64,000 bases of DNA from Steroidobacteraceae bacterium (lineage in GTDB: Bacteria; Pseudomonadota; Gammaproteobacteria; Steroidobacterales; Steroidobacteraceae), in NCBI GenBank assembly GCA_017853555.1, contig JAFMJH010000001.1:62001-126000 (forward strand). The letters run 5' to 3'. This document shows, one piece after another, positions 56,677-62,493 of this stretch; position 1 is the stretch's first letter; each line of letters starts with the position of its first letter. Both the position numbers and the translations under genes were made by a program. The notes below the pieces were generated by a model. It had not been told where the DNA came from. It did no database searches and saw nothing but the letters and a program-made list of their open reading frames with translations.

Positions 56677-58575
<1,899 letters not shown>

Positions 58576-58581
<6 letters not shown>

Positions 58582-58606
58582 AAAGGGCGGATCTTTCGAT
58601 CCGCCC
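58576..58606 (-). terminator. rho-independent terminator
   Basis: A 9-bp perfect stem, GGGCGGATC and GATCCGCCC (58606-58598 and 58593-58585), with loop GAAA is followed on the minus strand by TTTTTATTTT. On the plus strand no T tract follows, so it acts in the minus direction and covers the last codons of yheS. It may also stop read-through from the Mla-like operon. Confidence 0.85.
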
Positions 58607-58640
58607 AAACGGGGGTCACTCGTCAGAAGGGACGGTTGAC
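58576..58640 (-). ncRNA. predicted small RNA, about 65 nt, with own promoter and intrinsic terminator
   Basis: Transcription is predicted to start near 58640, eight nt after the -10. The 5' half can fold as GTCA-AC-CGTC, loop CCTTCT, GACG-AG-TGAC, followed by a single-stranded CCCCCG stretch. It ends in the terminator hairpin at 58606-58585 and its T tract. The C-rich loop could pair with Shine-Dalgarno-like purine runs, as in some trans-acting small RNAs. No coding potential is seen. The RNA family is not recognised. Confidence 0.62.
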
Positions 58641-58647
58641 GGGAGAA

Positions 58648-58676
58648 AGTATAAAAATGCGACCCCGCCGCGTCAA
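58648..58676 (-). promoter_or_regulatory. strong sigma70 promoter of the small RNA
   Basis: On the minus strand TTGACG (58676-58671), a spacer of exactly 17 nt (58670-58654) and TATACT (58653-58648) match consensus at ten of twelve positions. It is the strongest promoter-like sequence found in the window and lies between two convergent genes, where no protein gene needs it. Confidence 0.7.
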
Positions 58677-58730
58677 GCATTTGTACGAGAGAACGCTGTA
58701 TTTAAGTTGTACAGCCTGTCCTCGCGGGGT
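58662..58730. repeat. nested inverted repeats upstream of the small-RNA promoter
   Basis: An outer pair ACCCCGC (58662-58668) and GCGGGGT (58724-58730) flanks an inner pair GCTGTA (58695-58700) and TACAGC (58710-58715). TTGTAC also recurs at 58681 and 58707. The inner palindrome is centred near -65 of the predicted RNA start, where an activator could bind. The outer repeats overlap the promoter spacer. Confidence 0.45.
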
Positions 58731-58777
58731 GCGTAGCAGCCACTTGCCAGAGGCTTTATTCTTTTTAAATCAATAAG

Positions 58778-59404
58778 TTAGGGGGTTTTCGCCGCTGCTT
58801 GATCGCGCAACTCGGCGAGCGCACGGTTCGCCGCCTCCTCGAATGCGGCGACGATCACGGTCATCCGATCGGCCGTCACCGGTGCCAGTGCCTCGGCTTC
58901 GAACTCGCCGACCAATGCCCGATCGCTGGCGCGCAGGACCGTGGCCCGCAGCCTCACCCGCGCCGCGCGCGTGCCCGCCCCGATCTCGCCCTCGATCTCG
59001 AAACGCTGCACGCCGAGGCGCAGCGTGTACTGCACCGGCGCCGACGCGGCGGCATCGAAGGTGCGGAACGTGCCGCGCTCGCGCCACACTTCCAGCGCGA
59101 GCGCGTCGACGACGCGCGGAATGGAGGCTGCCCAGCGACTGGCGGCAAAGAAATCGAGGCTGCGATCGGCGCGCGACAACAACACGCGATCGGTGTCGTA
59201 TCCCGGCGCCGCAACACCGGTGATCACTTTCAACGCGGACGCCTTGCCGACTTCGGCGACTGGTCTTTCTTTGCCCGGCGATGTCGCACGCAAGACGTAC
59301 GTCACGGCAGAGACATCGGACTGGCCAAGCAGGCTGCAGCCGCTCATCAGCGACACGATACCGATCAGCAGCACGCTCCACGGCAGGCGTTGCAATCGAC
59401 TCAT
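58778..59404 (-). CDS. ABC-type transport auxiliary lipoprotein (PqiC-like)
   Basis: A 208-residue lipoprotein; the lipobox SLMSGC lipidates Cys23. The remainder (YVLRA, VDRSLDFFAASRWAA-like segment, GEFEAEAL) matches the PqiC/YmbA-like auxiliary lipoproteins that accompany MCE transporters and sit in the outer membrane. ATG overlaps the MCE gene stop (ATGA). It ends the Mla-like operon, about 100 nt upstream of the small-RNA promoter. Confidence 0.85.
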   Translation of the reverse strand: MSRLQRLPWSVLLIGIVSLMSGCSLLGQSDVSAVTYVLRATSPGKERPVAEVGKASALKVITGVAAPGYDTDRVLLSRADRSLDFFAASRWAASIPRVVDALALEVWRERGTFRTFDAAASAPVQYTLRLGVQRFEIEGEIGAGTRAARVRLRATVLRASDRALVGEFEAEALAPVTADRMTVIVAAFEEAANRALAELRDQAAAKTP

Positions 59405-62250: not shown

Positions 62251-62493
62251 TCAGGGCAACGTCTTGTGGGCACCGTCGCACAGCGGTGCGTTCGCGGTGT
62301 GCTTGCAACCGCAAAACCAGACTTTGCCGGTGGTGGTCGCATCATATTTGAGCGGCGTGAAGTCGCTGCCTTTATGCGAGCCGTCACAGAACGGTTGCTT
62401 GGCGGACTTGCCGCACGTGCACCACCAATAGCTCTTGCCGGCTTCGACGTCGACGGGGATCGGGGTGCGGCTGGCGATGACGGGATCGGACAT
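62251..62493 (-). CDS. CDGSH iron-sulfur domain protein
   Basis: An 80-residue protein with two CDGSH motifs: [17 protein letters not shown] and [16 protein letters not shown]. Each C-x-C-x-many-C-x3-H set binds a [2Fe-2S] cluster with three Cys and one His. Family members act in redox and Fe-S transfer. It is upstream of the permease gene on the same strand and divergent to purT. Confidence 0.94.

Follow-up and report, generated by a model that had tools for sequence, protein, structure and literature searches.

CarH and LitR proteins are described from Thermus, Bacillus, Myxococcales and Pseudomonas, and in the available portions of these reports their regulons are marked by a MerR-type B12-binding repressor, TnnACA boxes, an 11-bp spacing and a -35 element within a box (PMC8156234, PMC9304148, PMC9758184). 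CarH operators are there given as 11-bp repeats of the form nnnnTnnACAn with the -35 inside one of them (PMC9304148, PMC8156234), and Pseudomonas LitR proteins as binding TGTACA-N12-TGTACA, with one site over the -35; one of these proteins, PmlR2, acts as a repressor (PMC9758184). The targets named in these portions are protein genes, whereas at the locus described here one regulated unit would be the gene of a small RNA (sRNA). A light-linked cyanobacterial RNA is likewise a bacterial sRNA of light acclimation; it is 3'-end-derived and serves photoprotection, and the accessible part of its description draws no link to a B12 photoreceptor (PMC8136909). No report of an sRNA under CarH or LitR came up in searches of the open-access literature, outside which most subscription papers lie.

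The locus lies in a 64,000-nucleotide stretch of a Steroidobacteraceae genome (hereafter the window). We consider it probable that a ~60-nt sRNA is encoded there by an independent gene, that this RNA acts in trans, and that a MerR photoreceptor of the CarH/LitR type represses its promoter. We propose that the sRNA is a new family of a known kind of RNA and that the wiring from CarH to an sRNA is what is new. If CarH/LitR does drive the sRNA, light and B12 status would act post-transcriptionally, on many genes at once, in lake bacteria.

A Predicted sRNA Gene between yheS and an Mla-Like Operon

The end of yheS (58581) and that of an Mla-like operon on the minus strand (near 58778; auxiliary lipoprotein, MlaD, ATPase and MlaE genes) leave a gap of 196 bp, the size given by a first-pass annotation made from the letters alone. 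A small CDGSH iron-binding protein gene is also found near the operon (62254-62493). The features of the gap are as follows.

58578..58640, minus strand: predicted sRNA of ~60 nt (start placed by inference 7 nt after the -10; fold and conservation)
58615..58640, minus strand: 5' hairpin of the sRNA, CCUUCU loop at 58625-58630 (fold prediction)
58607..58616, minus strand: ACCCCCGUUU segment, a mostly single-stranded linker and proposed target-pairing region (kept in G196 and genus copies)
58585..58606, minus strand: terminator hairpin of the sRNA (terminator scan and alignment)
58575..58584, minus strand: U-tract of the sRNA, overlapping the yheS stop codon (sequence)
58648..58653, minus strand: -10 hexamer TATACT (promoter scan; aligned in relatives)
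58671..58676, minus strand: -35 hexamer TTGACG, at the same time the last operator-like box (15 of 17 copies have TTGACA)
58682..58687, minus strand: operator-like box 3, CGTACA (11 bp before the -35 box)
58697..58702, minus strand: operator-like box 2, AATACA (15 bp before box 3)
58708..58713, minus strand: operator-like box 1, TGTACA (11 bp before box 2)

The minus-strand promoter that the first-pass annotation had pointed out is present (TTGACG at 58676-58671, a 17-nt spacer and TATACT at 58653-58648), as is its 9-bp hairpin (GGGCGGATC-GAAA-GATCCGCCC at 58606-58585, followed by TTTTTATTTT). One promoter-like site in 58000-59200 is unusual against a shuffle mean of 0.1, while the count of terminator-like sites there (two, shuffle mean 1.5) is by itself not unusual. 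The predicted 63-nt RNA has a folding energy of -28.1 kcal/mol, against -13.1 on average for shuffles (z = -5.45, 0 of 200 as low), much as had been claimed: a 5' hairpin with a CCUUCU loop is followed by a C-rich single strand, CCCCGUUU. The prediction of a short RNA stands, with its size corrected from about 65 nt to 58-63 nt. Because of the operator-like boxes, the functional feature extends upstream to about 58713.

Conservation and Distribution

When the 114-bp region was compared with 60 genomes, its own included, 17 matched: its own, 15 of the 23 same-genus relatives, and G053, whose match was rejected as a copy since it covers the terminator hairpin only. A covariance model built from 15 rows, the G006 copy not being among them, finds full-length copies in 16 of the 24 genus genomes, at 90.9-99.6 bits, and nothing above 25.2 bits in the other eight, five of which are at least 96% complete (G003, G004, G014, G017 and G020). 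Two of the sRNA-less members, G020 (L035) and G004 (L036), have in common a C-rich stretch and terminator 3' of a coding sequence, scoring 25.2 and 18.6 bits. The conservation in close relatives that the first-pass annotation had suggested looking for is thus found in these 16 genomes, which carry a near-identical body, -35, -10 and terminator. Identity across the copies begins at the predicted start and ends in the U-tract, the flanks diverge, and mean column identity is 97% over 65 columns. Judged by this conservation, the predicted sRNA is a gene.

One further convincing copy, at 38.2 bits, occurs among 296 genomes drawn from the order, in a member of another genus of the same family (G196). 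It keeps the promoter elements and GACGAGTGACCCCCGTTT; its hairpin sequences differ, and it still folds as 5' hairpin, linker and terminator (z = -4.38). Across the genus copies and G196 the ACCCCCGUUU segment varies by one C-to-T change and one final T/C. Seventeen stretches of GTDB contigs carry the exact core, and all match the genus or G196 except L102 and L113, which on reading look unrelated. Likewise, 14 loci with weak covariance-model matches were read, and all but L049 (G196) look unrelated, being mostly terminators. Allowing up to two mismatches in an 18-nt core, nine family genomes outside the genus match, G196 exactly and eight with one or two mismatches; these eight are at chance level, given 21 matches of the reversed control in 217 genomes. 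The exact core has no match in viral contigs, and no sRNA match was seen among the plasmids or phages searched, so that none of these searches points to a mobile origin. The sRNA-bearing genomes are mostly metagenome-assembled genomes (MAGs) labelled Gammaproteobacteria/Steroidobacteraceae, and isolate names such as Erken suggest a freshwater genus. One MAG titled Klebsiella pneumoniae (L114, CAMCBU010000003.1) carries the core as well; its contig equals G006:C3 of this genus in length, and it is probably mislabelled.

These patterns bear on two readings in which there would be no sRNA gene. The hairpin could be the terminator of the Mla-like operon, joined to a chance promoter: it does follow the operon on the operon's own strand, and the number of terminator-like sites is by itself close to chance. 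We regard this as very improbable, as the whole body is conserved between diverged flanks, the neighbor on the operon side is not Mla in G013 and G018, and the G196 copy sits between carH and a short-chain dehydrogenase gene. The second reading, a short coding RNA, draws on an open reading frame that crosses the region from an ATG at 58680 (58150-58680, 176 aa) and is open in the window. It is closed by a stop within 35 codons in all of the other aligned copies (16 of 17), some aligned copies lack the ATG, that ATG is upstream of the predicted start site, and the sRNA itself has no start codon with an in-frame stop after it; a coding role is accordingly an extremely remote prospect.

Returning to an sRNA gene, only a tRNA in the window reaches its Rfam gathering score, and the best of 12 weak matches in the sRNA region is below half of its own. 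The MmgR/suhB family (RF00519) has in common, in alignment, the CUUCU loop, the C-rich single strand and the GC-rich terminator; as the family of this sRNA it was rejected (17.7 bits against a gathering score of 41), and there is no evidence of common descent. SorY (RF02651), tied to singlet oxygen resistance in its Rfam description, and NmsRb (RF02877) are likewise short, with C-rich or anti-Shine-Dalgarno-like stretches, and were set aside because the matches score 17.8 and 20.8 bits, a long way short of the gathering scores of 111 and 52.

Operator-Like Boxes and the Search That Led to carH

The promoters of the sRNA copies carry TGTACA-like boxes spaced 10/11-15/16-11, the last box being the -35 hexamer. 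We aligned 17 promoters (16 of the genus and G196), with a consensus derived from the relatives, by fixing box 3 at 11 bp before the -35 and taking the best of 14-17 bp for box 2 and of 10-12 bp for box 1; in all 17 the best gap is 15 or 16 bp for box 2 and 10 or 11 bp for box 1. Boxes 2 and 3 agree with TGTACA at 4-6 of its 6 positions and box 1 at 1-6, with 5 or 6 in 11 promoters and 1-4 in the other six, so that several relatives have a weak box 1. In the window itself the operator is degenerate (AATACA in box 2, CGTACA in box 3, TTGACG at the -35); its three-box score of 15/18 is the highest of 127,860 positions scored likewise on both strands. The TnnACA boxes and the 11-bp spacing over the -35 are present in relatives and degenerate in the window, and are combined with a central gap of 15/16 bp that differs both from the strict tandem of 11 bp for CarH and from the N12 arrangement for LitR in Pseudomonas, as these are given in the portions of the literature at hand.

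The pattern TGTACA-N5-TGTACA with one mismatch was designed from the sRNA promoters alone, before there was any candidate regulator. It occurs at 22 places in the 24 genus genomes, compared with 13 for a reversed control: nine at the start of carH (in nine genomes), four at the sRNA and nine elsewhere, the last group being no larger than the control predicts. It was through these matches that a gene for a B12 photoreceptor repressor of the CarH/LitR type, matched at its start, came into view, a probable regulator that is absent from the first-pass annotation. Before that, the boxes had been taken for an OmpR/PhoB-type site, a guess given up at this point. A refined pattern, TGTNCA-N9/10-NGNACA-N5-TNNACA, gives 40 matches in 17 of the 24 genomes (both strands of one place can count) and none in the control; 15 genomes account for 28 in the carH intergenic region, eight account for 11 at the promoter of the sRNA, and one match is elsewhere (G017:C49). 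Having been designed from these promoters, this pattern speaks to the exclusivity of the layout rather than to an independent discovery. It misses the sRNA promoter of the window, where the boxes are too degenerate.

The Candidate Regulator and Its Linkage to the sRNA

In the window's own genome, carH (L123:1508-2446) encodes MerR_1, B12-binding_2 and B12-binding domains, and the best PDB match of its product is CarH 5c8d (2.6e-30), with WHRGEVSIAQEH and GERHELG aligned. It scores 136.8 bits with the NCBIfam CarH equivalog NF052513, under the 400-bit cut-off, which makes it a homologue and not that equivalog. Upstream of carH, TGTACA -15- TGTACA -11- TGNACA stands close to the start codon in the loci read (17 of 20), and the divergent neighbor is a fasciclin-domain gene (domain checked in G013). 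Of the 24 genus genomes, 20 yielded the gene, among them 14 of the 16 that carry the sRNA; the two sRNA-bearing exceptions, G012 and G023, are incomplete or contaminated MAGs. In a carH tree of 18 rows, which excludes G010 and the genus proteins of G004, G007 and G020, sRNA absence is scattered, so that loss of the sRNA and assembly gaps are not separable. A second, distant match to the CarH query, at 34% identity, occurs in a genus member that lacks the sRNA (L151, G017:C272).

The motif Wx9EH is found in all 16 genus CarH proteins read, that of the window's genome included. In the CarH homologues of G196 and G060 (L288 and L289) Wx9ER takes its place, and the cobalt-ligand histidine motif is kept.

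In G196, carH (C29:282167-283081, minus strand) and the sRNA (from ~283171, plus strand) are divergent and ~0.1 kb apart. In G060, yheS and the Mla-like operon flank a carH homologue, with TGTATA -15- TGGACA -11- CGGACA between yheS and carH; the covariance-model search of the order genomes lists no sRNA match for this genome. The yheS-Mla junction is thus the place of the sRNA in the window versus that of carH in G060, and from two genomes we infer that sRNA and carH may once have been neighbors at this junction.

Could a real conserved sRNA be under some other regulator, or could the CarH homologue sense B12 or redox state rather than light? The 15/16-bp box spacing matches no published CarH spacing, and the degenerate boxes of the window, the Wx9ER of the G196 protein and the two sRNA-bearing MAGs without a carH match would all fit. 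Against this, an unbiased motif search put nine of the 18 places away from the sRNA at carH, the two genes are linked in G196, and the genus proteins have Wx9EH and GERHELG, W131, E141, H142 and H177 being named as key residues for adenosylcobalamin binding in the available part of PMC11796333. We therefore judge such a reading unlikely. The fullest form of the proposal, set out below, is made slightly less probable by the failure of the window's own promoter to match the refined pattern and by the Wx9ER of the G196 CarH.

Under photoreceptor control, CarH loaded with adenosylcobalamin would in the dark occupy the boxes, including the -35 hexamer, and block RNA polymerase; in light the cofactor bond would break, CarH would depart and the sRNA would be made. 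The sRNA, probably with Hfq, would then use its conserved ACCCCCGUU to pair with Shine-Dalgarno sequences rich in G, lowering the translation of its targets. An Hfq gene is present in the genome (106.1 bits, cut-off 27), and the predicted sRNA has a U-rich tail. In its fullest form, the proposal is that a B12-dependent photoreceptor directly controls a conserved anti-Shine-Dalgarno sRNA, so that in freshwater bacteria light resets how membrane and uptake genes are translated, and that sRNA and photoreceptor began as a divergent pair from which the photoreceptor gene moved away in this genus while the RNA kept the operator. We hold this whole scenario tentatively, as slightly more apt to fail in some part than to hold.

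Pairing and Candidate Targets

The first-pass annotation had both the loop and the C-rich strand able to pair with ribosome-binding sites. Such pairing is plausible, although it is GACGAGUGACCCCCGUUU and not the CCUUCU loop that the distant G196 copy keeps, and the occurrence at ribosome-binding sites shows no clear specificity. For AACGGGGGT, the linker's complement, there are 76 sites in nine genomes, compared with 52 for the reversed sequence. Among 65 different non-self contexts read, 20 have an ATG or GTG 12-18 nt further on that opens a frame of at least 120 aa. The related form GGGGGT-N4-ATG is common in the genus, in sRNA-less genomes too (281 matches, reversed control 67). It is preceded by AAC in six of the 150 matches listed, with 4.4 expected, and none of these six is among the 33 listed from sRNA-less genomes, numbers too few to tell.

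It may be, then, that AACGGGGGT at ribosome-binding sites only mirrors this common Shine-Dalgarno form, and that the sRNA binds a protein or one fixed RNA partner; the conservation of nearly all its positions, paired or unpaired, would agree. We think this rather doubtful, as the C-rich segment is kept in the distant copy, beside a terminator with a U-tract. Such an arrangement is seen in many Hfq-dependent sRNAs. Shine-Dalgarno pairing remains a reasonable mechanism for the predicted sRNA.

Among the 20 candidate sites, four precede genes of a single membrane-protein-like family that Pfam does not name (L213 in the window's own genome, L256, L189 and L226; identity is 41% for L213-L256 and 33% for L213-L189). 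Neither Pfam nor NCBIfam gives a name for L213, L189, L256, L203 or L222. An IclR-type regulator has a site in three genomes (L191, L194 and L216, the context of L216 being that of L191), and further sites precede a TonB-dependent receptor (L239, with L199) and a sodium/glutamate symporter (L221). The own-genome site, L213, is computed to pair with sRNA nt 21-36 at -21.6 kcal/mol; among 745 candidate starts in the window, the strongest pairing is -20.0 kcal/mol, with nt 21-34, so that energy alone does not single out L213. The carH leader pairs poorly with the sRNA (-2.4). The frames at L213:119-994, L256:32-994 and L189:1516-2397 encode proteins of ~290-320 aa, each with AACGGGGGT as its Shine-Dalgarno region.
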